64,000 nucleotides of DNA from Anadara kagoshimensis (taxonomy: Eukaryota; Mollusca; Bivalvia; Arcoida; Arcidae). Position 1 is the stretch's first letter. The number at the start of each line of letters is the position of its first letter. Below are positions 1-35,654 of this stretch, piece after piece. Both the position numbers and the translations under genes were made by a program. The notes under the pieces were generated by a model. The model was not told the origin of the DNA. It ran no database searches and saw nothing but the letters and a program-made list of their open reading frames with translations. Location: the NCBI GenBank assembly GCA_021292105.1, contig CM037864.1, forward strand, positions 47,256,094 to 47,320,093, in the 5' to 3' direction.

Positions 1-1012
1 TCTTTCCAACAATAAACTAACGCGTATGGATAATGGAACATTTGCTTCCTTGAGAACTGTCATCAGATTGGATATATCAAGGAATCATTTAGAACGAGTT
101 GAAAGCGAAGCATTTTTTTCTTTGCGAAAGTTACAGTACTTAGACTTGTCTCATAACAAGTTACGAATCATTCCAACAAGACTGGCTTATGGGATGATTG
201 AGCTTAAACAATTACAACTGGACCACAACTTCATACGGGTAATTAAACCACGTGCTTTTGTCTCAGCGCCCGGAAGTACTTTATCAAAACTGTCGTCACT
301 GTCGTTGCATTTTAACGACATCCGAAAACTAGAATCTGAATCATTGATAGGATTAACTAATTTGAAATCCCTAAGTTTAGACAACAACAGAATAAGACGT
401 GTACATAGTTTGGCCTTCTCGTCTCTAATAAACCTCAGAACGATGAAACTGAATAACAACAGACTGAAAAATCTGAATAATGGCGCCTTCACTAATCTCC
501 AAAACTTAGTTACTTTGGATTTGTCAACCAATAAATTCAGATCAATTCCTGCCAATATGTTTTCCGGCTTGAGGAACCTGGAAGAACTGAAATTAGCCAC
601 CAATGGTATCCATGATATTGCAACAGGCTCCTTTGAGCCTTTGAACAATTTGTATGAACTTGACCTGAAGGAAAACAAATTGATGAATTTTAATTTTTCG
701 TTAGTTTGGAATATTCGACCATTGTATGCTTTGGATTTAAGTGATAATCATCTGTTTTGGATTAATATCCCAAAAAATATGTCGTCAATAAAGATAAAAG
801 AGCTATCTCTGGCTGAAAACAACCTCCAAAGTGTGAAGAAAGATATTCAGAAAATAATGCGCGACTCTTCGATTCTATCCCTGACTGGAAACCCATTACG
901 ATGTGATTGCCAGCTCAGTTGGATCCGCGTTCCTGCAACTTCAAGGAACTTTGAAATTGAAGACTTGGACCACTTAGTATGCAGATCGCCGAATCAGCTA
1001 AATGGGAAGAAG
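1..1012 (+). CDS. Gene A, LRR exon (5' partial) of an LRR / serine-protease-homologue protein
   Basis: The reading frame is open from base 2 at the window edge, so the ATG at 26 is internal and the true start lies upstream. It encodes about 12 leucine-rich repeats of 24 residues (pattern LxxLxLxxNxLxxLxxxxFxxL), one of them lengthened (around VSAPGSTLSK), then an LRR C-terminal cap beginning NPLRCDC and continuing to LVCRSP. The exon ends at AAG|GTTGGT (1012/1013), on a codon boundary. Every repeat aligns with the LRR exon of gene B at 20919-22738, including the odd long repeat and the NFNFSLV segment near the end, so the two are paralogues. LRR proteins of this form are normally extracellular or cell-surface binding proteins; the ligand is unknown. 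Confidence 0.93.
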
Positions 1013-2389: not shown

Positions 2390-2502
2390 GTTACCAGTTT
2401 AAAAACTTCAGAACTGAGTTGTTCCACAAAGCTCGAAAGAACGACAAATCCACCATCAATTATTTGTAGTGATGTGCCAGATTTGAAAGCATTCAGCGGA
2501 AG
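2390..2502 (+). CDS. Gene A, linker exon completing the LRRCT cap
   Basis: A short exon between acatttcag and a GGAAG|GTTTGT donor, 113 nt, entered in phase 0 and left in phase 2. It encodes 37 residues starting VTSLKTSELSC and ending DLKAFSG. The first cysteine (ELSC) is the fourth LRRCT cysteine; a second (IICSDVP) sits in the linker. The gene B exon at 20205-20323 has the same phases and matching residues (EELTC, LVCNDVP, YSG), which confirms it. Downstream of the donor the frame stays open by chance to 2677. Confidence 0.85.
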
Positions 2503-3493: not shown

Positions 3494-4232
3494 AACCGCT
3501 GCTAAAGCTTTGATTAACAGGCATGTCACCGTGCTTGATGAAAATAAACGGCCCCAGTTCAACGGGGTACTTCTTAAAAACGGATGGGCGCTCGTTCCAG
3601 GAAATGCAATTAAGGAAATACAACAGTCTACGTCATCGGATGTGCGTGTAAAAATTGGTCGTAAAAAAGGGATGAGAAGAGTTACTCATGCCATCAGACA
3701 CCCCTTAGGAGCCATTGGAATGGATCAATATAATATTGGGCTGCTTCATTTAGATGGCAATGATTCGTTTAGTCATCCACTGTGTGTAATGACAGTTAAC
3801 CAGTTTGACACAGTTACAAGAATCCTGCCACGAGTTTCTGTTACTACCCGGATAGATGGTAGAAAACCATTCTCAAAACTAAAAGTTAGAAATGGTAAAA
3901 TCCACCCGGAATGTTCTAATCCCAGTTACTTGTGTTTAACGGTAAAGGGTAATAATAAAGGTAAAAGGAAGATGCTTCTCGATGGTTCTCCAATGTTCTT
4001 TGGTCAAATGAATGATTTAAAAATTGCTGGATTAGGCACTGCAGTGAATGATCCGGGTAACAAAAACTCTTTATTTACGCCATTATGGACAGTTTCCGAA
4101 TGGTTGGAAAGGGTAATGGACGAATACAACACAAAATGTGCATATCACGGAAAACACCGAAGATGTTCAAATATATCCTTACCAACTGCAAATGAATTGT
4201 TATCTGACGTGAGGAGACCAGAACGGCATTAA
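3494..4232 (+). CDS. Gene A, last exon: non-catalytic trypsin-like (S1) domain
   Basis: Entered after tttttttcag in phase 2 (AG|A gives Arg) and open to the TAA at 4230-4232; about 245 residues. The fold is read from S1 landmarks: FNGVLLKNGWALVPGNAI takes the place of the GGSLI..WVLTAAHC strand, THAIRHPLG matches the IxxHPxY segment, QYNIGLLHL matches NDIxLLxL, LLDGSPMFF replaces GDSGGPL, and LFTPLWTVSEWLERVM matches the C-terminal YTxVxxxxxWI helix. The catalytic His reads as Asn, the Asp as Asn and the Ser as Gly, so peptidase activity is very unlikely. There is no IVGG-type activation site and the Cys pair around the usual His is missing. Cysteines at PECSNPSYLC and near the C terminus (TKC...RRC) recur in gene B. 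No membrane segment follows, so the protein is probably secreted. The S1 assignment is mine and lacks profile support. Confidence 0.82.
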
Positions 4233-11217: not shown

Positions 11218-13662
11218 TGTTGTGTGTTGGCTAAGGTTGCTCTGGGTATTGTCAGGTTGTGTGTTGGCTAAGGTTGCTCTTGTTATTGTCAGTTTGTGTG
11301 TTGGCTAAGGTTGCTCTTGTTATTGTCAGGTTGTGTGTTGGCTAAGGTTGCTCTGGGTATTGTCAGTTTGTGTGTTGGCTAAGGTTGCTCTTGTTATTGT
11401 CAGGTTGTGTGTTGGCTAAGGTTGCTCTTGTTATTGTCAGGTTGTGTGTTGGCTAAGGTTGTTCTTGTTATTGTCAGGTTGTGTGTCGGCTAAGGTTGCT
11501 CTTGTTATTGTCAGGTTGTGTGTTGGCTAAGGTTGCTCTTGTTATTGTCAGGTTGTGTGTTGGCTAAGGTTGCTCTTGTTATTGTCAGGTTGTGTGTTGG
11601 CTAAGGTTGTTCTTGTTATTGTCAGGTTGTGTGTTGGCTAAGGTTGCTCTGGGTATTGTCAGGTTGTGTGTTGGCTAAGGTTGCTCTGGGTATTGTCAGG
11701 TTGTGTGTTGGCTAAGGTTGCTCTGGGTATTGTCAGGTTGTGTGTTGGCTAAGGTTGCTCTGGGTATTGTCAGGTTGTGTGTTGGCTAAGGTTGCTCTGG
11801 GTATTGTCAGGTTGTGTGTTGGCTAAGGTTGCTCTTGTTATTGTCAGGTTGTGTGTTGGCTAAGGTTGCACTTGTTATTGTCAGGTTGTGTGTTGGCTAA
11901 GGTTGCTCTTGTTATTGTCAGGTTGTGTGTTGGCTAAGGTTGCTCTTGTTATTGTCAGGTTGTGTGTTGGCTAAGGTTGCTCTGGGTATTGTCAGGTTGT
12001 GTGTTGGCTAAGGTTGCTCTTGTTATTGTCAGGTTGTGTGTTGGCTAAGGTTGCTCTTGTTATTGTCAGGTTGTGTGTTGGCTAAGGTTGCTCTTGTTAT
12101 TGCCAGGTTGTGTGTTGGCTAAGGTTGCACTTGTTATTGTCAGGTTGTGTGTTGGCTAAGGTTGCTCTTGTTATTGTCAGGTTGTGTGTCGGCTAAGGTT
12201 GCTCTTGTTATTGTCAGGTTGTGTGTTGGCTAAGGTTGCTCTTGTTATTGTCAGGTTGTGTGTTGGCTAAGGTTGCTCTTGTTATTGTCAGGTTGTGTGT
12301 TGGCTAAGGTTGCTCTTGTTATTGTCAGGTTGTGTGTCGGCTAAGGTTGCTCTTGTTATTGTCAGGTTGTGTGTTGGCTAAGGTTGCACTTGTTATTGTC
12401 AGGTTGTGTGTTGGCTAAGGTTGCTCTTGTTATTGTCAGGTTGTGTGTTGGCTAAGGTTGCACTTGTTATTGTCAGGTTGTGTGTCGGCTAAGGTTGCTC
12501 TTGTTATTGCCAGGTTGTGTGTTGGCTAAGGTTGCTCTTGTTATTGTCAGGTTGTGTGTTGGCTAAGGTTGCACTTGTTATTGTCAGGTTGTGTGTTGGT
12601 TAAGGTTGCTCTTGTTATTGTCAGGTTGTGTGTTGGCTAAGGTTGCACTTGTTATTGTCAGGTTGTGTGTTGGCTAAGGTTGCACTTGTTATTGTCAGGT
12701 TGTGTGTTGGCTAAGGTTGCTCTTGTTATTGTCAGGTTGTGTGTTGGTTAAGGTTGCTCTTGTTATTGTCAGGTTGTGTGTTGGCTAAGGTTGCTCTGGG
12801 TATTGCCAGGTTGTGTGTTGGCTAAGGTTGCTCTTGTTATTGCCAGGTTGTGTGTTGGCTAAGGTTGCTCTGGGTATTGCCAGGTTGTGTGTTGGCTAAG
12901 GTTGCTCTTGTTATTGTCAGGTTGTGTGTTGGCTAAGGTTGCACTTGTTATTGTCAGGTTGTGTGTTGGTTAAGGTTGCTCTTGTTATTGTCAGGTTGTG
13001 TGTTGGCTAAGGTTGCACTTGTTATTGTCAGGTTGTGTGTTGGCTAAGGTTGCACTTGTTATTGTCAGGTTGTGTGTTGGCTAAGGTTGCTCTTGTTATT
13101 GTCAGGTTGTGTGTTGGTTAAGGTTGCTCTTGTTATTGTCAGGTTGTGTGTTGGCTAAGGTTGCTCTGGGTATTGCCAGGTTGTGTGTTGGCTAAGGTTG
13201 CTCTTGTTATTGCCAGGTTGTGTGTTGGCTAAGGTTGCTCTGGGTATTGCCAGGTTGTGTGTTGGCTAAGGTTGCTCTTGTTACTGTCAGGTTGTGTGTT
13301 GGCTAAGGTTGCTCTTGTTATTGCCAGGTTGTGTGTTGGCTAAGGTTGCTCTTGTTACTGTCAGGTTGTGTGTTGGCTAAGGTTGTTCTTGTTATTGCCA
13401 AGTTGTGTGTTGGCTAAGGTTGCTCTGGGTATTGCCAGGTTGTGTGTTGGCTAAGGTTGCTCTTGTTACTGTCAGGTTGTGTGTTGGCTAAGGTTGCTCT
13501 TGTTACTGTCAGGTTGTGTGTTGGCTAAGGTTGTTCTTGTTATTGCCAGGTTGTGTGTTGGCTAAGGTTGCTCTGGGTATTGCCAGGTTGTGTGTTGGCT
13601 AAGGTTGCTCTTGTTACTGTCAGGTTGTGTGTTGGCTAATGTTGCTCTTGTTATTGTCAGGT
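11218..13662 (+). repeat. 37 bp minisatellite, about 66 copies
   Basis: Unbroken array of a 37 bp unit whose core is TGTGTTGGCTAAGGTTGC followed by TCTTGTTATTGTCAGGT. Variant units swap CTTGTTATT for CTGGGTATT, CACTTGTTATT, or GTC for GCC. The variants are arranged in longer patterns: a block near 12510-12880 recurs 370 bp (10 units) later. The unit is not a multiple of three and no frame stays open, so it is not coding. The plus strand is strongly G+T-rich. Confidence 0.97.
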
Positions 13663-17327: not shown

Positions 17328-17655
17328 ACCACTGCGGTAGCTCAGTCGGTAGAGTGCTCACTCCATACGTGGGAGGTTGTGGGTTCGAACCCCAGCCGGG
17401 TCTGACCCAAGACTTGAAACTGGGTAGTGACTGTTCTTTCGCCAAGCACTCGGCATTACGAAACGAGTCACGTTTTTTCGGATGGGGACTTGAAATAAAC
17501 TAGGTCCAGTGTCATGGTGGGTTTGGTACGCTAAAGAACACTGCTGTATCATGACATCAGCACAGGCAAAATTGCTGCACTTTCGCCTACAGCTGGCGAC
17601 GTCTCGATATAAGTGAAATATTATTGACGGGACGTTAAACACTACTCAACTCAGC
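17328..17655 (+). mobile_element. tRNA-headed SINE, forward copy
   Basis: The head (about 17331-17405) has an A box TAGCTCAGTCGGTAGAGTG and a B box GGGTTCGAACCCC, as in RNA polymerase III promoters of tRNA-derived SINEs. The acceptor arms do not pair well, so it is not a functional tRNA. The body runs through GTGACTGTTCTTTCGCC to a conserved 3' tail, GTCTCGATATAAGTGAAATA then GGGACGTTAAACACT. This organisation resembles the V-SINE/RUDI type known in molluscs; the family name is not certain. Confidence 0.82.
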
Positions 17656-18910: not shown

Positions 18911-19652
18911 TCAATGTCGTTCGACCATAGATGATTTTGCCAGTAATTCGCTTTCTGTAGGAAGATTTATGGTTGAACAACTTGAGACATTTTGGCGAGT
19001 AATAGGACATTTTGTGTCATACTCCTGGATAACTTTGTTCATCCAATCTATCATTGTCCATAGTGGTATAAATAGTGTATCTGATGGATAGGAACCCTTT
19101 AAGTTGGTCCCAATTCCAGCAAGTTTATAATCACCTGCAAGTCCCAAAAACAATGGTGATCCGTCCAACAACATCTTTTTATTGGCAGCTTTTTTACCTT
19201 TTGCCTTCACACAAAGGTAATTTGCATTAGAACATTTTGGACGGATCTTACCATATCTGGATTTCAATTTTGTCCACGGTTTTCTCCCGTTCATTCTAGT
19301 TGTAAAAGTAGATTTTAGAATAATTCTTGAAATGGTGTCAAATTGATTAACATTCATCAAACAAATCGGATAACCTTCATCCTCTGCTTCTAAATGTAGA
19401 AGAGCTACGTTGTACTGTCCCATCCCAATACTTCCAAGTGGATGACGAATAACGTGGTGGACTTTACGAAGTCCCTTAGCTCTTCCAACCTTAATTTTAA
19501 GGTCTTGCTTGACTGTCTCTTGTTGCACACCTTTGACAGCGTTACCAGGAACTAAAGCCCAGTTGTCATGGATAAGTATGCCACTGAACTGCGGTACTCT
19601 GTTGTCATCCAAAACGGTCACATGTTTCTTGATGATGGCTTTCATGCCAGCT
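18911..19652 (-). CDS. Gene B, last exon: non-catalytic trypsin-like (S1) domain
   Basis: Acceptor tgtttcag then AGCTGGCATG; stop TGA at 18913-18911; 246 residues (755-1000). S1 landmarks: FSGILIHDNWALVPGNAV (about 776-793), HHVIRHPLG, QYNVALLHL (834-841), YPICLM, LLDGSPLFLG (915-924) and LFIPLWTMIDWMNKVI. At the catalytic positions there is Asn 791 instead of His, Asn 835 instead of Asp and Gly 918 instead of Ser, the same three changes as in gene A. The domain is Lys/Arg-rich (GKKAANKK, GRKPWTKLKSR). The protein ends ...MVERH, close to ...RPERH in gene A. The upstream open frame (to 19729) is intron read-through. Likely role: binding or scaffolding rather than proteolysis. Confidence 0.85.
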
Positions 19653-20204
19653 CTGAAACAAGCGAAATACAAATAATACATAATTAATAATACATTTAGG
19701 ATATCGTTAAATAATTTGAGTATAAACACTAGAATTTTCGACGAATGAGAAATGCCTCCGATACAGTATTTGTAAACTCAATACTATTTTAAAGAATTAT
19801 TTTTGTTTATATTCAAAACAATTCACTAATATGAGGACCTTGACCTTGTGAACTTAATAAGTTCAAAGTCATTCCACAACCGACAACCTTTCAACCGTCC
19901 TTGTTTATAAACGAAGCAAGGTCTTATGAACCAGACACCGTTTTGAAACATATTTGCTCAGGTATCGTAATTTATCAGATATGACCTGAATGACATGACT
20001 TTACAGACACAGAAACGGACAAAAAAACAACAACGAACAAATAGACAGACACACAAACAAACAGACAAATAGACAGACACACAAACAAACAGACAAATAG
20101 ACAGACACACAAACAAACAGACACATAGACAAATTAGGAATTTTATAACATTATAAACCGCCTTTACTTTGCATTGTTCTGAAGTTACACACTCAGGTAC
20201 TCAC
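19653..20204 (-). other. Gene B intron between linker and protease-homologue exons
   Basis: 552 bp with GT/AG ends. It contains the 28 bp tandem repeat at 20041-20130. Confidence 0.8.
20041..20130. repeat. 28 bp tandem repeat, about 3 copies
   Basis: Unit ACAGACACACAAACAAACAG plus ACAAATAG, repeated three times with the last unit slightly changed (ACACATAG). Confidence 0.9.
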
Positions 20205-20323
20205 CTTCCACTATACCTGGATATTTTGTGGTTTGGTACATCATTACATACTAACGAAGTACTCTCCTGTTTCAACGTAGACTTTGCAGCACATGTCAGT
20301 TCTTCAGTTTGTAAATCCATCAA
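20205..20323 (-). CDS. Gene B, linker exon completing the LRRCT cap
   Basis: Acceptor atatttgtag|TTGATGG, donor GGAAG|GTGAGT; 119 nt, phase 0 in and phase 2 out, residues 715-753 plus a split Arg. Cys 725 (EELTC) is the fourth LRRCT cysteine; Cys 740 (LVCNDVP) lies in the linker. Two residues longer than the equivalent exon of gene A. Confidence 0.87.
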
Positions 20324-20689
20324 CTACAAATATAAAACATTGAACTGAAATATATATCAGCAAAATAAAATTGTATATAATAACAGAATAATGCATGCAT
20401 TTACGTTTGTGTAGCTGATGATGCCATATTTTCAATATATAATCAGAAGGCTCATAGACTGTCGTTTCCTGGTTATTCTGAAAGGACCTGACTTGTTTTA
20501 GATTGTTTAGTCTTTTGAATATTGTATCTTAAATCGAAGCTCTACTTGGCATTTGCTAATAGGACCAATAACAGATCAACAGAAAAAAGAAAACAAGACG
20601 ACATACCGTAATACCACTTGATGTAATTAATCACAAGGTCGTCAATTTTCGTCTGACATCATATGTTAACAATAGTAATATATCATGAA

Positions 20690-20830
20690 AATTGTGTGAA
20701 AGTTTCATGAAAATCGATTGAAGGGTTTAGGAGGGGTTGTGGATAAGAGGTAGGTACCCTAAGGTGTAACGGAAGGACGGACGGACACCCCTATCACTAT
20801 ATACCCCCACTTTTTAAGCGGGGTATAAGC
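20690..20830. repeat. Dispersed-repeat tail with GGAC run and hairpin
   Basis: Reads AGTTTCATGAAAATCGATTG, then GGAAGGACGGACGGACA and a hairpin ATACCCCCACTTTTT / GCGGGGTATAA. This composition is typical of 3' ends of interspersed repeats in mollusc genomes. It lies in the gene B intron 20324-20918; the class is not determined. Confidence 0.5.
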
Positions 20831-20918
20831 TGTGTAGTCTCAGAATTTATAGGGCACTCGCTATCAAAATTGTTTTAACAATCAATGGTATGTAATCAGA
20901 CTTTATAAATTTTCTCAC

Positions 20919-22738
20919 CTGTTTACCACGATTACGAAGGGGAGTCCTGCAAAGTAAATTTTCTATACCCTCAACTCTAATATGTCGACTAATAGAGGAA
21001 TCACGCATCCAAGTCATGTGACAGTCGCATGCTAACGGGTTTCCAGATACAAATAATGTAGATTGGTCTTTTAGAATTGTCTGAACGTCTTTTCTAATTG
21101 TATGCAAACTATTTTCCGACAGTAACAGCTCTTTAAGTCTCATCTGAGAAGATTTTGGCACATTTATCCAAAGTAAATGGTTATCACTAATATCCAGTGT
21201 TGATAACCACTGTAGCATTTCCACAAGCGAAAAGTTAAAATTAAGAAGTTTATTTCCTGATAAATTTAGATCCACTAATCCAAGAATTTGTCTGAAAACA
21301 TTTGCTTGAATATCAATAATACTGTTTGACGCCAAATTTAAATCTCCGATATTTTCGAGTCCAGAGAACATGTCATTCGGAAGCGATTTTATTTTATTGT
21401 TTGACAAGTCAATGCTGAGTAAACTCTGTAGCCGTCTGAAAACTCCAGTGCTCAACTGTTTGATTTTATTGTTGTTTAAGTATAACTTTTGAAGACTGTC
21501 GAGCGTGGATAAAGCTAAGCTATGTATACGTTTAAGTCTGTTATTCCCAATTTTGAGAGTTTTGAGGTTTGGCATTCCAGAAAGTGTATCAGCATCAAGC
21601 TTCCTTATACCGTTATACTGCAAGTCCAACGTAGTCAATTTCGAGAGATGTGACGGCGAGGCAGTTGCAAAGGCCAGTTGTTCTATCCTTCCGATGAAAT
21701 TATGTTGTAAATTTAATTCTTTTAACTCTGGTAAACTGCTAAATATATTCTGACGGATAGTCCTTAATTTGTTATGAGACAAATCTATATATTTAACGTA
21801 TTGTAACGGCAAAAATGTACCTTCTTCTATGTTTTCAATGTGATTTCGAGATAGATCAAGTCTGTTGAGATTACTTAAATGGGTAAATGCATCACTTCCA
21901 AGAGATGTCAACTTGTTACTGCCAATATAAAAATCAGTTAAAGCACCCAAACCATAAAATAAGGTAGCGCGGATTTCATGGATATCATTTGTTGAAAGGT
22001 CTAGGATTTTCAGTTTATTTAAATGACGTAACGATCCTTCTTCTATCGTTTCTATAACATTAGCGGACAGCAGTAATTCCTCTAAGTTACGAAGATTAAC
22101 AAAAGAATCTGCCCTAACAGACGATAGCATATTCCCTCTCAATGACAAAGATTTAAGAGCATGGAGATTGTGAAACCATCTTGGCCGGATGTCAGAAATA
22201 CGGTTTCCGCTCAGCAAAAGTTCTTGTAGCCGCACATTCCTATCAAATGTATCCTCAAAAAAGGTTGTTAAATTGTTGCGTGACAAATCAAGTCTTTGTA
22301 GATATACGAGAGTGCGGAACTGGTTTCTATTCAATCTCTGCAATTTATTCCCATTCAAATTTAAAGTCTTGATATTTTGGATAAACTCAAAAACGGATGG
22401 CGGAAGGCGATATATGACGTTGTCGGACAAATCCAATTCGTTTAAGCTTTGAAGTCCTCTGAATACAGCAGACGATAGATGACGGATGTTATTGTTTGGT
22501 AATGACAGTTTCCTCAAGTTTCCCAATCTATTGAACACATGCGGATATAATACCCCGATGTTATTCCCGGATAATGTAACCTCGTGAAGGAGATAATTGT
22601 TCGCAAACACATCTCTTTCTATATAACGTAACTGGGTGTTGGGTATTATTGGTCGGTCATCACTCTGTTGTCCTGGTGATAAAGTTGGTCGCGGTGATGA
22701 TCCACTACTGTCACCAAATATGGTTAATGAGAATATAT
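20919..22738 (-). CDS. Gene B, LRR exon
   Basis: Acceptor tatattttcag|ATATATTC, donor CAG|GTGAGA, 1820 nt, phase 1 in and phase 0 out, residues 108-714. It begins with a Ser/Pro-rich stretch (about 117-140, SSGSSPRPTLSPGQQ), then about 21 repeats of 24 residues (first at about 158, LHEVTLSGNNI) and the LRRCT start NPLACDC (674-680) to LLCRTP. Repeat 13 is five residues longer (FATASPSHLSK), as in gene A. All repeats sit in one exon. The frame upstream of the GTG at 22610 stays open and coding-like back to the acceptor, so no start is needed here. The protein should form a solenoid used for ligand binding. Confidence 0.95.
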
Positions 22739-22976
22739 CTGAAAATATATGAATACAAACAATTTTTTAAAATGAAGATGCATCTGGACAATGTCGGTGA
22801 AGTTATTGCTAAAAATGGAGAAAAAACTGGATAATGTTTGTAAATCGGTTGTGCAAATTCGTTTATATTTGAAAAAAAGTTCTCTGCAGGCACAACATCC
22901 GTTGAAGAATATTTACCTTCGGATTTTTGCGTAACACTTAAGTATGTACTAGAGACTCGTTTATGAGTGTTCATCC

Positions 22977-23038
22977 CTCTCTCTCTCTCTCTCTCTCTTC
23001 AGGTCAATATACACAGCCATTTGTTACTTCTATCCAAC

Positions 23039-23072
<34 letters not shown>

Positions 23073-23111
23073 AGGTCAATATACACAGCCATTTGTTACT
23101 TCTATCCAACA
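22977..23111 (+). repeat. Tandem duplication of a (CT)n block plus about 44 bp flank
   Basis: Two copies of (CT)n followed by TCAGGTCAATATACACAG ... TATCCAACAC, the flanks being identical. The CT runs differ in length. The block sits about 240 bp upstream of the gene B LRR exon. Confidence 0.92.
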
Positions 23112-24256
23112 CCTGTTACCTACGAACTGTTTCAACAATTCCTGCAACTCTCACCGTGTTCAATGACAGAGCAAACTATGCAAGATGTTTAGTTGGTCCA
23201 TTGGTGGAATTTATTTGTTCACTGTTATAGTTTACAATGCATTTCGCTTATAATGGTTTTAAACAGCTGATAATGTTTATAGTTTATTTTCTGAATATCG
23301 GACTCCCCTGTTTGGCCTTGAAAAATAATGAAGATATACCACGAAATTCCAATTACAAAAGAAACATGTCTAACATAATGATATAGCTGAAATATACCTT
23401 ATGTTCAATATGTCATATCCCACATTTTGAATTTAATCATAAAATACCTTCAAAAAGTGATATATTACACATGTATCATGCAGTTTGATACAAATATTGT
23501 TTTAAATATTATACATTCATCGTCAAATATTAATTTTAATTTTCATTTCAGATTATTTTGCAAATACATTCATGTCTAAGTTATGGAAGGCTGCAGTTAG
23601 AAATTATTGTAAAACTTAAATCTTGGGTCTGTTGCATTTGCAAATCATTTAAAACTAAATCACATGTTTCTATCATTTACCATATGAAAGGTTGCAAGCT
23701 TCTACACACTACTATAAAAAGTAGTTGGTATATGCTGTGTGGTCAATTATAGCCGTCCAGTGTGGTCATTTTGATGGACAAGAGCTCTCAATTTAAAAGT
23801 GTTTTCTTTCATTAATACAGGGTCATGACCGGTAGAGCTATCATCGTTAGACCCTTGAAGATAATAAAAACTGTCTGAATTATTACCAGCTAGGAAGTAT
23901 CCAATACAAAGATAAATGTTCATTGCTTTTTAATACCGTTTTGTTAAGGTATTTACACAGTGCAGTGTCATAAACACATTTAATTGAAACAAACGTTCAG
24001 TAATAAACATGTAGCTAATGCACATATAAATGTTCATTGCTTTTTAATACTTTTTGGTGAAGTTATTTACACGGTGCAGGGTCTAATTGAGACAGGATAC
24101 AACATTTACAACGCTTAAAAGGAATTTAAGTCAAACTTTGTTACAAAGTTTATCAGTAAAACACCTTTAATTATAACATTAATACTTCCTCGTCAGTGAC
24201 ACTTTGCACATATTACATACGTATTGATCAATTAGGTGTAGTGCATTAATGTGATA
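23112..24256. other. Intronic, nothing recognised
   Basis: Within the gene B intron. GTTCATTGCTTTTTAATAC occurs twice (near 23918 and 24029), so there may be a small local duplication. Confidence 0.35.
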
Positions 24257-24437
24257 TACAGTAAATCCTTACCATAAAGGGCGTCTAAGGGAACCTGTAA
24301 AAGTGGCCTTTATAGGCACTTGGTCCTTATATACAAGTTCAAATCGTCAGAATAAAGAGCAAATGGGATATAATTTCACCGGCTTAGAAGCAGGTGGTCC
24401 TAATAAAGAGGTGGTCTTTAAGGCAGGTTCGATTGTA
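24257..24437. mobile_element. CAGT-ended MITE, copy 2
   Basis: TA-CAGTAAATCCTTACCATAAA at the left and AGGCAGGTTCGATTG-TA at the right, with internal AAGTGGCCTTTATAGGCA and AGGTGGTCTTTAAGGC as in the copy at 7967-8150. Overall length is nearly the same (181 and 184 bp). Confidence 0.72.
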
Positions 24438-27262
24438 CATGTATATGTAATTTGAACTTTCAAAATCATTTCAGAGTAACATAACTTGATTTGTAATTTC
24501 AAAGGGACACGGTGACTTTAATAACATAATAATTTATCACAGTAAAAGAATATTAAACGTGAAAATGATATATACATGTATTATGTATGATTTTGACATT
24601 TTTTATTTGAAACATGTGATATATTACATGTACTTGAAAATAAATACAGACATTTTTTCTCACAATTAACACACATGTAACATAACATAAAATAAATAAG
24701 CAAAGAGAAAATGAAAACTTTGACATCTGCGGTTAATGGGATCTAACCCTGGAGCGGAAAGTAGTAATTGCGTCATTTATTTAATATAGCTTTGATCAGG
24801 TCCAAAATTACGAAAATAAAGATCTTATCAAAGACTAGAATAGTATTCTACGGATGAGTTGTTGAACGGTAATGAGATTGGCAAAGAAATGATTAAAGTT
24901 TACAAATTAAGGAACTCATGGACTGTTGAAATAATGATGTTATTATGTGTTTCCAAGCGTGTGTGAATCCGTCCCACTGGAGAGACCGAGGTCTTGTTAA
25001 TTATTTTTCAAAATCGTATTAAAAGACGACACGAGGCTGTGATATGTTTGATAAGCAAACGACACATTCGCTTTGTAGATAACGAGATATTAATGTGACT
25101 GTGAATGTCATCTTCCCAGGCTTAAAATTTTGTTATAATTAGGCTTTTACGACCCTCAGTTGTATAATATCAAAATGATGATGTAGGACACTACATTAAA
25201 TTGTAATTTTCATAAAGTGCTTTGCTAGGTCAACACTTCACGCGGAATATATTATTTCACATTCTTATTAATTTTCTGAACATGCTTAGAATTTTCTGTT
25301 CATGATGCAAGTTTTTGTCAAAAACAAGCGACACCACGTAATCACAATACATGCATTAACCCATTAACCGTCAAAAACTTCAATAATTATGTTGCATAAT
25401 GATTACCTTGATCCGTTTACTTATTCCACATGCTAACTAGTGTTGTTCTTGGTTGTTTGTGGCTGTTGCCAAAGATTTGCAAGTTTGCATTTGACCTTAG
25501 GTCAGCATTATTGTTAGAAATCCCAACTCTTCGCAAGTTCTGTTAGATCAAATCCAACTCTTGATAACGAAACTTTCACTTTATTTATGAAATTATCTAA
25601 TTTATTCTAGAAATCGAAAAATAAAAGTACATTGTTTAGAATATGGCGCGAAGACAAGAACTATTGGCAATATTTCCGGTTTACGGAATGGGTGTCGACG
25701 GGAAATGTAAAACTACAATACAAAACGGAAAGGGTGGGTGAACTTTTTATTAATGAAATGTTTTAAGGCTTATCCGTACGCTATCATTCCTATCTATGTT
25801 TACAGATGAAGCAATTATGATCAAACACACACGTTAATTATGTAATTTGTATTCTTTTCAATTGGCATATTACCACCATTTAACGCGAGCTGTAAACTAT
25901 AAACCGACATCATCTCTTATTAGTTAGGCGGCTGCCCAATGTCATGAATTACCATCTGCCCGAAATATATCTCGTGTTGTTTAATTTGTTACACAGTTTT
26001 CTTATATATTTTATTTCATGTAATTTTGACATAAGAGGCTACCAATGAGTGAATTCCTCTCCAACTCTTCAGCTACAACAGTACCAGACAAATGTCCTCT
26101 AAGAATTGGCTGTTTACGAGTAGAACGCAGTTGTTATCTCTACTCTCTCGATTCGCAGTACATGTCATCGGCCAAATTTAGTATAGTATGGCTGACGAAA
26201 GCGTAGCAGACCTCTGTGGCAGAAGATTTTATCCAGCAAGTTTACCATAGATCTAAAATAGGTTAGGTACCAAGCCAAACTTTCGGAGCCCTAATATATT
26301 TTCTTGAGGAATATCCGGAATTCATTCGAAATGATTTTGTTTTAAATTTCTCGAGATCCCGAAATCCCGTTGATGATACTTTCAAAATGGCGAAGAATTT
26401 GTGGAAGTTCCACGTGATTTTGACACGAACTTTGCTACTCGCCCATATATGGATTGTTTTGTTGGAGTGAAGGACTTCTGCAGTTTGATTAGTTTTAGAA
26501 TTATCAAACAGGTTATTCAAAGTGAAAGCCTCGATTTTGCGGCCTTTGGTCCAGCTTCGCTTCCTATCATTTGATCGGCGACTTTGTTATTCAGATGTCA
26601 TATCTTGTTTTTGTTTTAATTTAAATTGTTAAAATTTAAAAATAATTTGAAGCTTGTGTTCCAAATGTAAAACTGCCAAACGACACATTTAAAATACTTT
26701 TGTGCAAGGTTTATAATGAAAGTTTAATAGATAGAGCTCGTGTATATTGAAACCTATGACTCTAGACCAGCTCTTGCTATATTTATACAATTATAACCAG
26801 TGGTTCGGTGTGCTTAAACACTTTTGAAGATGTCTAACCATCTCAGTTTTGTTACAGCCAGCGGTCCTTTAACATGCCGTATTTTGAAATAAAAAAATGA
26901 TTTTAAGAACCTATCGTGAGCCAAAGATAAAGATGTTTCGTATCTGTTTATATAAATCTATATCGTATAAAAAATTCCAATTAGTAATTGAACGGAAGCC
27001 AAATCCGCTGTAACCGTTTACGAGAAATGAAAGATGATTATACAATATGGATCATTTAATAACGGTAATGGGATTTCTTAACAGATTAATGGGAACGAGG
27101 TTTTCTGACTTACACATGCTTTAACTTTTTTTCTTTTTTCAATTTCAAACTTTTATAAGTTTTTGAAATCGTTTGTTGACTGTTTCGATCAAAAAGGCAT
27201 ATTTTTTCAGTTTTTAAATGCTTGGTTGTGAATTTTTGACGATTTTATATACAAAACATAAA
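24438..27262. other. Intronic stretch with a CG-richer patch
   Basis: Mostly plain AT-rich intron. From about 25620 to 26600 the sequence becomes less AT-rich, with several CpG and balanced codon-like stretches. Short frames there are ATGGCGCGAAGACAAG (25643-25741) followed by a GTGGGTG donor-like site, and a 20-codon frame starting MADESVADL (26188-26250). A minus-strand frame (26520-26263) also falls here. None matches a family I know, so none is called as a gene. Confidence 0.35.
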
Positions 27263-27263
27263 C

Positions 27264-27264
<1 letters not shown>

Positions 27265-27297
<33 letters not shown>

Positions 27298-27312
27298 TAA
27301 TAATAATAATCA
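27265..27312 (+). repeat. (AAT)n microsatellite
   Basis: AATAATAAT... run broken once by AAAA. Confidence 0.95.
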
Positions 27313-29434
27313 GGTATGACCGGTAAACAACGCAAAAACAAAATGCATTGTATATAGATCTATATAAATGGACCTGTAAACCTTCAAACAAGGAAATGTC
27401 GAACAGCAATAAATGTGTTTGTTTTATACAAAACTTCCTATACTAGTTTTACCTTTATGGCTCATTGTTTAGAAAAAATGTAATTGTAATCACCATGTTT
27501 ATACATTTTGCCTGGCATCTGTCTAGGTTGTTATGATATTGTCGATTTAGGGGTATATTAGAGAGATAAGGCGCGATATGCATTTACCTTGCATTTAATG
27601 TCTGACTGGACTGTTTGAAATGACCTGTTGTGTGAGGAGAATGCCTTATAATCAAGAACAGCTATAAACAAACTTAAAATGCACTCGGTGGTATCATCTT
27701 GGTTGCAATCAAAGTATTTTAAAAGATAAATAAAAAAGAATATTACTTTTTATACTACAGGCCTAGCGAAATTTTGATGCCCATTTGTCAAAGATTTAAT
27801 AGAATTGCCAAAAAAAAAAAAAACTAAAATATTATCAGTTTATTGAACTGATATTGTGAAATATTGCCAAGTAGCAAAATACATAAAATTTACTTTCACT
27901 AGTATTTCATCAAAGCATACAGTTTTTTGCATCTCATAATGCAAACTGTTTCACTAGTTCTTGTATAAGGGTATAGTGATTCAGACGAAAGTGTCATGTG
28001 GTGAAGTTTGCAGTATAAAAAATGGATTTGGGAAAACCTCGCGCAGAAACAATATCATTTGCGCCTCATAATTTATTGTTTAATTTCTATGCGAAACACA
28101 TATTGTTAAAAATCAAAATAACAATTAATTTTAACATGTTACATTGCACTGCCATATTTTTGCATAATACTGTATTTTGATAAATGAAATAACAAATATT
28201 GTGTAAAGTGTGTACAACATGTATGTATAACATGTGTACTTTTAAGTTTTAAAATACTTTAGCGCAATGATCTTTTTAATTTATTTCGAATTGCTGTATC
28301 AATAATTGCCTGTAATTTATATTTCAAGATCTAAAAGCACATGTATTCATACATGTATAAATTTGTTATTCGATTTTTACTCCAAATAACGAAAAACAAT
28401 AAATACATATATGTATTTCTATAATTAAAGTGTCTCACGCTAAATGAGCAATAAAATTAGAAATGTTTGAAGTCGATCTGTTTACAAAATGCAAATAATA
28501 AAAAATATAATCTCCGAACATAAATTACATTAAATTAAACTTAGGTCTAGTATCATTATTTGATTGTGTTCAGCAAGGCGTGGTGTTGACGCCGTGCCTG
28601 TTGTGTTGAGTTTCTGGTGTGAGGTATCTGATATATTATAATCACATATCACACACACGTGAGAAAACATCATAAAAAATTAAACAAGATCTAATGAATA
28701 TTAAACATGCAATTCATTCTAAAAATAAAACTTAAGTTCTCATAAAAAATGTTTTAATGGATTATTTTTTCTGTATTTGATGACTCTGAAAAAACTGATG
28801 TCTACCGAAGGGAAATTGGTTTCCAAATATAGAAATTAAAAAAGAGAATTTTAATCTATTTCCTGTATTCCGTCTCATTGCATTATCCATTTCACAAAAT
28901 TGCCCCTCTTGTTTAAAATCACGAATGAAGAAATAAACGAAAATTTAAAAAGGTGCCTTCTCCCAATTGTGGCCTCAATGGGGTTATGATATTTTTTCTT
29001 ATCAAATAATTTATCAAATGGAGATTTTCATTTAAGACGTCAGATGTGGTCTTTTGTTTCACAAATGGAATAAAACCCCTATATATCGTTTTTATAATAG
29101 TAGGTATAACTGACCGTATAGAAGCATATATTTTGCATAACACCTGTGAATTTGAATTTTAAGTGCTTAAGAACTCATTCAAGACGAGCAAATGTTAGCC
29201 TTATAAACAAAGATAAAGGGGTTTGGATTTAGGATAATGAGGTATAGATACCATCTGAATCAGCTTCGTACTAATACACAATGTAATTTAATGCAGTCAA
29301 GGTTGTGAGTTTCATCATCAGTAGTCCAAACACACTGTGTTTATATTGTCTTGTTTCGTTCCTTAGTTGGTTCATGTACTCGGTAGTAATTGCTAATGAT
29401 AAGAACAAGCTTAGGCATCAACAATGAACGATGT
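27313..29434. other. Intronic, nothing recognised
   Basis: AT-rich sequence without a recognised element. Confidence 0.4.
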
Positions 29435-29590
29435 CCAACACAAACATACTGGTCCATGTTAAAATCACAAACCCAAAAGCAAAGTTTGTTAAAAACGTGA
29501 ACTTGAACTTCCAAAGAAAGAGAGTGAGGCCGGGAACTCCGGAAGTGTAAGCACCTCTTGTTTATTGTTTAGATACAGGCTACGGTGAAC
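29435..29590 (-). mobile_element. Degenerate 3' tail of the Penelope-like family
   Basis: Motifs CAAACATACTGGTCCATG, GTGAGGCCGGGAACTCCGGA and GTAAGCACCTCTTGTTTA in the reverse orientation, with internal losses. Confidence 0.6.
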
Positions 29591-30279
29591 TCAGATTGGG
29601 AATGAAATTTAGAACATGAACTGTAGGGAGTTAAAATATCCATATGTATCTTAATTAGTTTGTTTGTCTGAATTATGTTTTACGCCCAGCAAGATTTGTC
29701 TGTTTAAGAACGGTAAAGTGAACCGAACAACCGGAAAGAAAACACACTGTCAATACAGTTTGACAGTTGAAAACTTTAATCAGGCGCTGAGAGGTGCTAA
29801 AATCAGAAACTCGTTGGAGACTATTTCATAACAGTGAACACATGTAAAATGTTATATTAATATAAGTAATACTGCAGTTATGGACATAAAGGTCACTTGT
29901 TCGTCCCATGTTTAGAACCTGACCCAATTTGAAAAAGGCAACTTTGCTGAAGAGAACAATGACCCAATTCGCTATCATAAATAGGTTTTTTTACCATTAA
30001 CCGTGTTGGATGATAATACTTGAAATGTCATAAGTGGTTTAAATACAAATTTATATTTGTTCAAAATGCGTCAACTTGATTTTTAAGCAAACATATGTAT
30101 AACATGTAGTGGCAGGTTTGTCCTCGTGGTTGATTCATGTTTTCTTATGAATGAGCTCGATGATAATTACTACAGTCAAATAAATCTATATCTTAGATAA
30201 CAAATAATTAATTCACCTTAAAATGTTATATTTGAACTTTATATATCATTACTTTAAGGCCAGTCGGGATAGTGATATT
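29591..30279. other. Intronic, nothing recognised
   Basis: No recognised element. Confidence 0.4.
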
Positions 30280-30496
30280 ACAGACCTGTCGATCGTTTAA
30301 CACTGAGCTAACGAAAAGGAATGAAAGCTTAAATTTGGATGCCGAGAATCCGATATATATATGGATAGCTATAGCGACCGTAAAGTAGCCAAAAGATACA
30401 TAGCAGCCGAAAAAGTGTAGAGATTTCTCTAAAAAGGGCCAAAATGAACTGACATTAATCCGTAAGTGTTAAAACTTCTCGACGCACCTGTACTGT
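30280..30496. mobile_element. ACAGACCTG-ended MITE, copy 1
   Basis: Left end ACAGACCTGTCGATCGTTTA (continuing ACACTGAGCTAACGAAA). The right end is its imperfect reverse complement (GTGTTAAAACTTCTCGACG, CACCTGTACTGT). A similarly sized relative lies at 43027-43237. No coding capacity. Confidence 0.62.
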
Positions 30497-32789
30497 ATGT
30501 ATTTGAATAGTCAAAAAGAAGTGAAACTTTACGTTTAATTTAGACTCGATAATCGAAAAGTACAGAATGATAATTATTTGTGTATTGTATTAAGGTGTTT
30601 TATAACATGTCTTTGATATACCCACACCCTAAGTCTAACAATAAAAACATCTACTGCTTCATTAACCATTCAAAACATGAAGGTTAGACAACTAATAGAG
30701 CCCTTAAGTAAATAAAATACTTCATTAACTAAAGATTACTAATACTATGACATTAGTACGATTTTTTAATGAAATGTCAAATTCGATTTTATGTCCAGTT
30801 GTATTGATTATTATCGATTTTTATACCTGTATGTTTCTATTTTGATTGCTATCTCTTCTTTATTTCTATTTGTTGATAGTTTGATAAAAGATAGTTTTGA
30901 CATTTTAAAATCCAAAGAAACAACAAAATAATAAATATGATATCAGTAATATTAAATATGATGAAAACAAGCTTTTAATGGACTTAGTAGAGACATATAT
31001 TTATATGTATTTTTAATTATAGACACTTACACTGTATCTTGTAATTATTTATGGAAAATTGAAGTTGTAATGTTTTGAAGTCTATTATTGTTATTATTAT
31101 CATTGAAGCAAACATCAATAAGCAGATATTATTGAAAAAATACATACATTTAAAAGCATAAAATGACACATTATTGTTAATAAGAATGTATTTAGCAACA
31201 TACGTCTATCTATCTAGGTTTTATCGGAGTTGTCTATTGAGTCGGGGGGGGGGCAATTCTAATGGTTTCAGTCGATCATCGACGCGTTTCTTACCACAGG
31301 TGACACTTGCATAAACCGCGATTTAACATGTAATGATGCTGTATTTCTTCTTTCATACATTTTAACATCACATGTGTAGGTATTGACTAATTCCTTCCAG
31401 TTTCAAATGTTGTATTTCAATCTCCGTTTTCTAACATCAATGTTATATGTGTATTTTTTTTTAGATTTTTAACAAAGAGACATATTCAAGATTCTCTACA
31501 CGACGCTAACATCAAATTCCAAAATACGTGTCTAGTATTTTTAAATTAACACAGGTGTGTTGATATAATTGAATTTTAATTCTTGATGAATAGGGTAAAG
31601 ACAAAACACGTGGAAAGATTTAAACTAAATCTTCTTTAGTTAAAACATTAAATCTTAACGATCTGAATACATTGTAAACGAACCGGTCATCTCCGTTTAC
31701 TAATTACGCTTGCACGGTCACTTAAGTCAGTTTTGTTCTTCTACTAAATTAAAGTTTGTTCTTTGAATGATAAAGTTTAACTGTAACTAAAACATGCCTA
31801 ATTTTAAAAAAAATGAAATAATCTATACAGATTTGAAAACAAAATGTTCGTTTCAAAACATGCAGTGTTTATAATATATAGTATTGACGTTTAATTACAT
31901 CAACATTACTAAGAAGAAACGTGTGACATATTTCATGTCTTTCTTTTTTTCAAAATGTTGTTACACTTTAGCTTGTGGGTAATGTTTCTCATATTATTTA
32001 GCACACCCAATGTATGACTTCTCTTTTTGTTAGTCCTCTATCAACTTTGTAAGATACTTCTATGTAGAAATGTTTTAATAATAATGGTTGCATAATTACA
32101 TGGCAAAGTGCAACGATCTACAAACAAGAAAATAAAACAAAAACGTGTATACTAGTTTTGTTTTTGAATGTCAAGGTTCAGAAAAAAAAATCTTACATTG
32201 TATAGGAATAGAAAAGGTTACTTTTACTCCTCTTGTCAGAAATTAAATCATGGTTGATATCGTTAGCCAACATATCCATACAAGATAACATTCCCAACGG
32301 CATCGATTTGTCAGAAAAACCGCTTGATGGACCAAACATTTTCACCGATTGTTCAGAACTAATCATTTGAAGCCGGTCGTAATAATTACATATTATCAGA
32401 ATAAATGTATCTATGTATTGTCTAGAATTGCCTGAGGTAGCTGCTATAAGTTTGTGGTTTTGAAGAGATGGCTATCTTTTATCTGTTTGCCTTACATAAG
32501 AACGCGTCTTACTCAATTTTTATCAAGTTCTATAAACATTGGAGATAAACAACACAGCTATAATTGGCAAAATTAAGATAAACTACCTTGTTGTTTCAGA
32601 TCCGACATCAACAAGTTGTGTAACGCCGGATAACATGATGGCCTATTTGCATAACTCCTAAAATCATCATCGTATATTATTCTATATCCTATAGTTAGAT
32701 AGTCATATTGCATCATTGTTTTTAAAATGTTGAATATGTTATTGATATCGATACTTTTTATATAGGCAAACAACTTTGACCTGTCCGAT
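30497..32789. other. Intronic, nothing recognised
   Basis: AT-rich. It includes a G10 tract near 31242; no other element is seen. Confidence 0.4.
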
Positions 32790-33315
32790 TGACCTTTAAT
32801 TTAAATATTTATCACGGACCAAGTATTATAATGTGGAAAAGAGTAGTAGACTTTGTAATTGTTGTAATATGAAAGTTCAAGAAAATGAATATCATTTTTT
32901 GTTAGTGTGTTCTGTTTATATTGATTTACGGCGAAAACATTTTTCTACTTATTATTGTAACTGGCCTAACATACAAAAATTTACAAGTCTTTTGTCTTCA
33001 AAAAATGCTTCTTTAATTAAGAAAACCTCAAAATATTTATATTATGCATTTAAATTGAGGGACGAAATATTATGTTTAGTATAATCTACACTTTTTTTGG
33101 ACAAATGTGTAACTTATTATACATGTAAAATGGAAATATTATACATTTATATATTATATTATCATAATTATTATTTGTGATGCTCTCTTACCATATTGAT
33201 TGTTTCTCTTTGTATTACATGTAATTTGTAACATAATTTGCCACAAGTTATGTAAAATATATTTGTGGCAAAAAGCATATGTATGCTTAATGCAATAAAG
33301 ATTGAATTGAATTAA
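32790..33315 (+). pseudogene. LINE (non-LTR retrotransposon) C-terminal fragment and 3' UTR
   Basis: The frame around 32812-33083 reads LSRTKYYNVEKSSRLCNCC, then VQENEYHFLLVCSVYIDLRRKHF and KKTSKYLYYAFKLRDEIL before a stop. The CxxC ... EYHFLLxC pattern is the zinc-binding C-terminal tail seen downstream of the RT domain in many invertebrate LINEs. The following 230 bp of 3' UTR ends in AATGCAATAAAGATTGAATTGAATT, with a short ATTGA repeat tail. No RT core is present: 5'-truncated and inactive. Confidence 0.72.
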
Positions 33316-35332
33316 AATTGTATATCCATGTATAGGGAGCAAATGTGTTTATTTTGTCTACATAATGTGAACACTAATCATGTTCCTTGAGTACACATTA
33401 TTAACAGTGAATCCTACTACAACCTATTTATTGGGTGGAACCTTCTATATGAACATTCCTAATGAAAGGTCAAACGGACAGGTCAATGTTGTTTACCTAG
33501 TCTTCGTACACATGTTTATTTCTGTCTTGCTTTGTTCTTTCGTTGTGTATTTTTCTAATTGTCTTACATAAGATTGTTGGCAATTACCGCTTACAAGTTT
33601 CATGAACAAATATATATCTTTTGCAATTTGTACATTGTAATAATAAAGAAAAAAAACGAAATTGGATGAAAATATAGGTTCACAATATAAAACTCAACAT
33701 CGTTAGGCTTTGCAAGGGTTTCTGAGATAATGACTTAATGTACAAAGATATGGACGCTTTTGGAAACTGACCATCGCATATGTTTTATATATAATGATCC
33801 ATACTTCTGGCTTAGGGCTTTCCCAAAGTTGGATTCTGGCAAGTATCTATTGTCCAAATAATAATGTAAAGTTGAGGTTATTTAAGTTACATGTGCGCTA
33901 AAGGAGAATACAGAAACACATAAATGTAGTGAAATACAAGTTTGGGAAATTATTAGGAACGCATCTATGTAACTCAAGCGTATCCAAGACAATCCTCAAA
34001 TAGAGTTAATAAAGAGTCACCGGGCATAGCGCTTCCGGATTCCGGCCTTTTCTGGTTAGTTTTATACCAGCCTCATGTATTTATCGCGCCACATGCAACA
34101 AATATACTATTATGAGACTTTTAAGACAGTGCTTCACAACAAATTCCGCATCAAGCCTTTCTCCAACTCTCATTTGATTTAAGGTGGAGTTTTTATTTGC
34201 ATAAAAGCACCTAATCGGCTTCCATAGAATTAAATTCAATATCCTTTAATCCTGTAATTGATCATATATAAAATAAATGTTCGTGGGATAAGATTAACAC
34301 ACAAAGTGCACTGTTATAATACACAACGTACTTAATAAAGTGAATTAAACGGTTTGTCAGATCGAGTTTAAAGTTTGACACTTGTTTACTCAAGTTTTGA
34401 GTGGATTGCCGAATCATTGTTAATTGCTTAAAAAGAACCGTTTTAACCTATTAAGTTTGGCCTGATTTCTCATACTGTTCAAACGAACACGATTTTTGTT
34501 TGCAATATAATGGTTAATACACACGCGTTTGACGGGTATTCTTCAGTTTTGTTATTATATAGAAATTTTCACTTTCATTACGAATGCTTTGAAGTTATAT
34601 TGAATTTAAAAAATCAATCAAATTTGCATTAATTTAATTGAATCAAGACAGTTACACTTATGATTATGAATCAATACATTGGTAAATTTATGCGCATAGG
34701 TCTAGGGTTTTAATTTTTGGTATTGATATAATATATTTGATTCTGTTTTGATTTTGATTAAGACATTTAAAATGATCTTTTATCTATGTGTACTATGGTT
34801 TGTAGAATGTCGCGCTGACGAAAAATGTGGATGGTGACGCTGGTAATTAAAACATACGAGCTATCAGGATATTTTTACATTCAGTGCAAATAAACATATG
34901 CCAATGGATCGTTAAAAGAAATAAAAATAATTATGGGTATTACTGACAAATAAGGACTAATTACAAGTTGTCCTTTTGTTATTTTGCAAAATTATTTTAT
35001 TTTTGCCAGATTTTCACATTTAGTTTCAAAGGTTAACGCTAATACAATGTCAAGCATCAAATACTAATGTATGTTGCATTTTATTTGTGATGAATTCATA
35101 TTTGTTCCTGGTTTAACGTGATATACTTCAATAAAATTACAATGTTTACTGTAAAAGTTCAGGAGAAACAAATATTAAAGCCTATGCATTCTTTCAAATA
35201 TCTGCAATGTGTTGCTTTTCTATAAGAATGCAATGTTGTTATAACCGTCTTGTACTGTCAAAACGGCACATGATAATCTACTTATAATTCTGAATGTGTG
35301 TTAAATTGTGTATCATAGTTCCAGAAACTTAC
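33316..35332. other. Intronic, nothing recognised
   Basis: 5' part of the gene B first intron; AT-rich and without recognised elements. Confidence 0.4.
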
Positions 35333-35654
35333 CTGATGGCACTGGCTTTGGTAACCTCTGTAAGCCCTGGCACACCATGCTCCTACCAGGATCTACAGCC
35401 CTTCCATAGGAGTGGGATCCCCTGTGACTCCCTCTACCCCAGTTCCTTCCAGTATCGAACCCATCTAAAAGATCCCTGGATTGTCGTTGATTTACGGACA
35501 CGCACCTGCATTTTGATGGACACGTATCCCGTGCTTTGTCTCCACGGATATTCCTACTGGGACGTGAACTATAAACACTTAATGTTACAGAATATGTGTA
35601 CTCCAAAGTTGAAAAAAGTAAAAATAAAAAACTTTTCCAATTTAAAATGTTCAT
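35333..35654 (-). CDS. Gene B, exon 1: signal peptide and LRR N-terminal cap
   Basis: ATG at 35654-35652; 107 codons plus one base; donor CATCAG|GTAAGT. Residues 5-22 (NWKSFLFLLFSTLEYTYS) form a signal peptide. The LRRNT signature follows: CPSKCRC (45-51), then MVCQGLQRLPKPVPS (93-107), the usual C-x3-C-x-C ... C ... LxxVP layout. The gap between the third and fourth cysteines is 43 residues instead of about 10 and is filled by a Gly/Arg/Ser/His-rich insert (TGRNWGRGSHRGSHSYGR). The split codon G|AT joins the LRR exon at 22738 in frame. The antisense plus-strand frame (35294-35788) is a shadow of this exon. Confidence 0.8.

Follow-up and report, generated by a model that had tools for sequence, protein, structure and literature searches.

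Gene A of the ark shell Anadara kagoshimensis encodes a protein of leucine-rich repeats (LRRs) followed by a catalytically dead, S1-type serine protease domain. Such LRR-S1 proteins make up a long-established family of bivalves, and gene A is more than a fusion peculiar to this locus. The architecture is apparently undescribed so far, although long conserved in bivalves; the combination has been kept across distant bivalves and is masked by the automatic names of the family members, such as acid-labile subunit and artichoke-like. Pseudoproteases and LRR receptors are both important in invertebrate defence and matrix biology. We propose, with a probability of roughly 0.45, that the gene A product is secreted, binds its targets without catalysis, and docks on polyanions through its cationic pseudoprotease domain.

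Exons and paralogues of gene A

Gene A spans 16.7 kb of the window, the 64,000-nucleotide stretch of DNA analysed here (Table 1). All its introns have GT-AG boundaries and matching phases, and the joined exons form an uninterrupted reading frame of 1000 codons from the ATG at 35654 to the end of the TGA at 18911. The four in-phase exons and 1000-residue product proposed in the first-pass annotation are thus borne out. The protein is 88% identical to a protein of Tegillarca granosa, and exon 3 is 80% identical to the Tegillarca protein P0002. In intron 1, just upstream of exon 2, a 72-base sequence that has a CT repeat at its core is perfectly duplicated (22977-23114). The open reading frame of exon 4 begins about 42 residues before the acceptor and includes a methionine, but a translation start there was ruled out, as the counterparts in the two paralogues lack the methionine.

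Table 1 Exons of gene A and of paralogue B within the window
Feature	Position	Strand	Description
Gene A exon 1	35333..35654	-	ATG, signal-like hydrophobic stretch, LRRNT cysteines C45/C49/C51/C95; phase-1 donor; kept in relatives
Gene A exon 2	20919..22738	-	21 LRRs and first LRRCT cysteines; LRR_8 match, repeat pattern, splice sites
Gene A exon 3	20205..20323	-	Last LRRCT cysteine, linker, Cys740 (Cys1-type, S1 domain)
Gene A exon 4	18911..19652	-	S1-type pseudoprotease domain and stop codon; fold from profile and AlphaFold model
Paralogue B exon 2, 3' part	1..1012	+	LRRs and beginning of LRRCT; exon 1 and the 5' part of exon 2 fall outside the window, to its left
Paralogue B exon 3 (linker)	2390..2502	+	
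Paralogue B exon 4	3494..4232	+	S1-type pseudoprotease domain, stop codon; B and gene A are convergent

The genome, comprising 1.1 Gb in 36 contigs, was searched with the last exon of gene A; counts for large families from this search are lower bounds. The exon has three matches, each in a full four-exon LRR-S1 gene (A, B, and C). Paralogue B is intact, encodes 995 amino acids, and lies partly inside the window. Paralogue C is also intact, encodes 982 amino acids, and is located about 21 Mb away. The region between genes A and B contains a tandem array of 66 copies of a 37-base unit with 95% identity (11219-13662), which coincides with strong GC and AT skew. A tRNA-like Rfam match at 17335-17398 (33.4 bits, E 0.0036), for which ARAGORN makes no call, is perhaps a tRNA-derived SINE.

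The gene A model was built from genomic DNA, and it is conceivable that the S1 exon belongs to an adjacent gene and is never spliced to the LRR exons. We consider this highly improbable, since three loci of the genome share the order and exon layout, all three matches to the S1 exon fall within LRR-S1 genes, and many bivalves have full-length proteins. Seven of these relatives, which carry the unexplained tag "lgn", are proteins of 973-1000 amino acids on contigs of 3.4-4.3 kb, and we take them to be spliced cDNA assemblies. The shortness of these contigs relative to the gene A span lends indirect transcript support to the splicing.

The gene A protein has the features of an extracellular LRR protein. 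It begins with a hydrophobic, secretion-like stretch, judged by hydrophobicity only, at the place of the signal peptide read in the first-pass annotation. No membrane anchor is evident past residue 30, where the top 19-residue Kyte-Doolittle window scores 1.0. The exon 2 reading frame gives a strong match to LRR_8 in a Pfam scan (E 1.4e-131), and a strict pattern delimits 21 LRRs of about 24 residues each. Fourteen cysteines are distributed among LRRNT (four), LRRCT (four), and the S1 domain (six), and each is kept in 17-21 of the 21 family sequences. The Pfam LRRNT and LRRCT models are absent among the matches listed for exons 2 and 4 and seven relatives; the repeat pattern and the conserved cysteines agree with the earlier reading of an LRRNT, about 21 LRRs, and an LRRCT. 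At the start of exon 2 (residues 108-147), a variable insert breaks the first repeat after a conserved GDSS-like motif, and does so family-wide. Cys740 and Cys851, a putative pair of the Cys1-Cys122 type, probably tie the S1 domain to the LRRCT linker.

Fold, catalytic positions, and charge of the S1 domain

Exon 4 alone has no Pfam match at E<=1, and its S1 sequence gives only a chance match to the PDB (phmmer, E 1.3). Because single-sequence searches gave no real match, the domain was assigned to S1 by way of its family. A 12-sequence family profile searched against PDB sequences retrieves S1 chains, with the protein C heavy chain as the best match (E 1.8e-5), and the best 60 of 382 matches are all named S1 or S1-like. 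The Pfam Trypsin model does not match gene A exon 4 alone but scores above the cut-off in the relatives P0004 and P0019. Similarity to the S1 superfamily is therefore found through the profile and the relatives, not through the gene A sequence by itself. The AlphaFold model of the domain (pLDDT 81.5, pTM 0.83; final 32 residues barely tested) has a predicted two-barrel chymotrypsin fold and, in a structure search, resembles S1 structures among the matches listed. An earlier model built from 8 sequences was too poor for use (pLDDT 53.9). Profile, Pfam matches in relatives, and predicted structure all uphold the S1-type fold suggested originally.

The profile alignment places Asn791 at the position of His57 and Asn835 at that of Asp102, as previously read. 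The residue at the Ser195 position is most likely Asp917, and not Gly918 as the first-pass annotation had it. The stretch around Ser195 aligns without gaps but scores -3.3 bits alone; it is anchored on a cysteine and a proline, which we take to be positions 182 and 198 in chymotrypsin numbering, and a one-residue gap would bring Gly918 to the serine position. With either residue, the gene A protein is, by this alignment, without any residue of the triad, and the claim that its S1 domain is catalytically dead holds.

The complete His57-Asp102-Ser195 triad of an active S1 protease is found in no family member. Among 21 family sequences, 12 lack all three residues, nine retain a single one, and none has two. 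Position 57 is occupied by Ser (7), Asn (4), Asp (3), Thr (3), Gly (3), and His (1); position 102 by Asn (16) and Asp (5); and position 195 by Asp (9), Asn (6), Glu (3), and Ser (3). The single His at position 57 belongs to copy C (L007, about 100-825), and Ser at position 195 is restricted to three scallop proteins (P0004-P0006). In Sinanodonta, column 57 itself contains Ser, and a His is located one position earlier. A catalytic remnant is rejected, as the His57 of copy C and the Ser195 of the scallop proteins never co-occur. Different lineages have, to judge from these columns, lost triad residues in different combinations. The domain is a good test case for why dead proteases persist: its catalytic residues vary, and its fold, cysteines, and charge are retained.

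The S1 part has a net charge of +12 to +30 and a pI of 9.4-10.2 in 20 of 20 sequences, with the truncated P0015 left out. For the remainder of the protein, the net charge varies between -4 and +27 across the family; this comparison is with the rest of the same proteins, and the positive charge may not be special among S1 domains. In the S1 part, 11 columns are at least 90% Lys/Arg versus three that are at least 90% Asp/Glu, compared with 16 versus 20 in the LRR part. The residues K882, K884, R886, and K889 form a K-x-K-x-R-x-x-K motif, located at or on a predicted strand, whose positions are Lys/Arg in 19-20 of 20 sequences. Between close orthologues, the S1 and LRR parts are conserved to a similar degree, with identities of 93 versus 88% for gene A and 89 versus 90% for paralogue B. 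The corresponding values for Sinanodonta are 28 versus 43%, that is, the S1 part diverges more at distance.

The conserved positive charge of the dead domain suggests a docking mechanism. The solenoid of 21 LRRs with its LRRNT and LRRCT caps would present the face to which a protein ligand binds. The chymotrypsin-fold pseudoprotease, presumably unable to cut, may have been retained as a cationic module that would dock the protein on polyanions such as glycosaminoglycans, bacterial surface glycans, or acidic matrix. Secretion, polyanion docking, and ligand binding by the LRRs are what we infer, as is any function in defence or in the matrix. A non-enzymatic docking module is favoured because the S1 domain is conserved, basic, rich in Lys/Arg columns, and azurocidin-like. 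The docking proposal is supported by the S1 fold predicted by both profile and model, and by the family-wide limit of one triad residue per member. It is weakened by the net basic charge of the rest of the A and B proteins (+20 and +26, respectively) and by the divergence of the S1 domain beyond that of the LRRs at the distance of Sinanodonta.

Distribution among bivalves and candidate functions

Two single-protein searches with the S1 part identified five relatives of full length, two of them in Tegillarca and one each in Pecten, Ylistrum, and Argopecten. An eight-sequence profile, for which 7985 word-sharing candidates were scored and the best 120 of 3070 matches listed, extended the family to 18 relatives (P0002-P0019), among them proteins of Saccostrea, Mytilus, Pinctada, and Sinanodonta, a freshwater mussel. 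Full-length relatives thus come from ark shells, scallops, oysters, pearl oysters, mussels, and one freshwater mussel, and the domain order noted first in gene A recurs across several bivalve orders. Below the 18 relatives, the score falls from 829 to 641 bits and the coverage to about half; the next matches, among the best 120 of 3070, are LRR proteins, mainly of arthropods and nematodes, many of them named artichoke or chaoptin. A profile of the S1 domain based on 20 family members detects it in 18 of 18 relatives, including the truncated P0015 from outside the profile, and in none of the 102 other LRR proteins among the matches listed (E<=10). Together with the three intact four-exon genes in the same order, this distribution argues for the docking proposal. 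The relatives are all bivalves among the matches listed. No names of gastropods, cephalopods, or heterodont clams occur among the best 120 of 3070 matches, of which some are nameless.

Artichoke and chaoptin are extracellular or cell-surface LRR proteins. As they are the nearest LRR relatives outside the family among the matches listed, and as the family itself is confined to bivalves there, gene A might encode a matrix or adhesion protein of shell, mantle, or connective tissue, with LRRs binding matrix proteins and the basic S1 domain binding acidic polysaccharides. We regard this as rather unlikely, given that the LRR similarity is generic and that the available text of a single-cell study of the shell mentions LRR genes only in general terms (PMC9261976). 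The matrix role overlaps with polyanion docking, and differs from it in being placed in structure and not in defence.

In a tree of 20 sequences, drawn with a root for display only and with Sinanodonta as a long branch, the proteins A, B, and C group with those of Tegillarca (support 100/99), and the mussels have separate copies. Separate duplications in ark shells and mussels would fit immune genes, but duplications do not tell functions apart. An immune role is plausible by analogy with Anopheles, where, in the available text, cleaved TEP1 (TEP1cut) is complexed with LRIM1 and APL1C, and TEP1 accumulation on microbes requires the non-catalytic SPCLIP1 (PMC3764210). By this precedent, the LRRs would serve to recognise microbes or a complement-like partner, with the pseudoprotease recruiting or positioning a protease or thioester protein in the manner of insect serine protease homologues. 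A single chain would then cover the tasks that mosquitoes divide among LRIM1, APL1C, and SPCLIP1. Such a cofactor function is doubtful, as neither a clip domain of the SPCLIP1 type nor other homology was seen.

A further and still less probable speculation is that the protein is a single-chain recognition factor exclusive to bivalves, in which the LRRs pick the target, where a protease or complement-like protein is then recruited or restrained by the cationic pseudoprotease. The fusion would then predate the split of the sampled bivalves and have been duplicated separately since. If this were true, one fused bivalve gene would do the job of separate insect LRR proteins and serine protease homologues.

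Comparison with known systems

No description of an LRR array and a dead S1 domain in one protein was found in the titles and abstract beginnings of the open-access literature, and within this scope the statement that no named family joins the two stands. Among the accessible parts of individual papers, one figure legend places Tryp_SPc in its SRCR panel and not with LRRs (PMC11797021), and another text names LRR and trypsin-like domains for different genes (PMC4746906).

Artichoke and chaoptin share the long LRR arrays of the bivalve family, but none of the 102 listed proteins from outside the family has the S1 domain. The S1 domains of the vertebrate proteins haptoglobin and protein Z are inactive and accompanied by other accessory domains. 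Both are among the closest profile or structure matches listed, a fold-level resemblance that is not specific. They use the inactive S1 domain for binding and, unlike the bivalve proteins, have no LRRs.

Human azurocidin, also called heparin-binding protein or CAP37, is a cationic, dead S1 protein in which, according to the available text, the catalytic His and Ser are replaced (PMC12467777). A cationic S1 domain without the triad is likewise present in 20 of 20 bivalve sequences (net charge +12 to +30). Azurocidin is a neutrophil granule protein without LRRs, and its likeness to the bivalve family is one of kind, not of descent.

The clip-domain serine protease homologues of insects and crustaceans, including SPCLIP1, are secreted proteins that combine a non-catalytic S1 domain with another module. 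Their module is the clip domain, and LRR proteins are separate chains, whereas the bivalve family has the LRR array in the place of the clip; no clip domain occurs among the Pfam matches of gene A exons 2 and 4 and of seven relatives. The nearest functional parallel is provided by mosquitoes, in which, in the text available, a non-catalytic protease works in the same pathway as LRR proteins, there as separate chains (PMC3764210).
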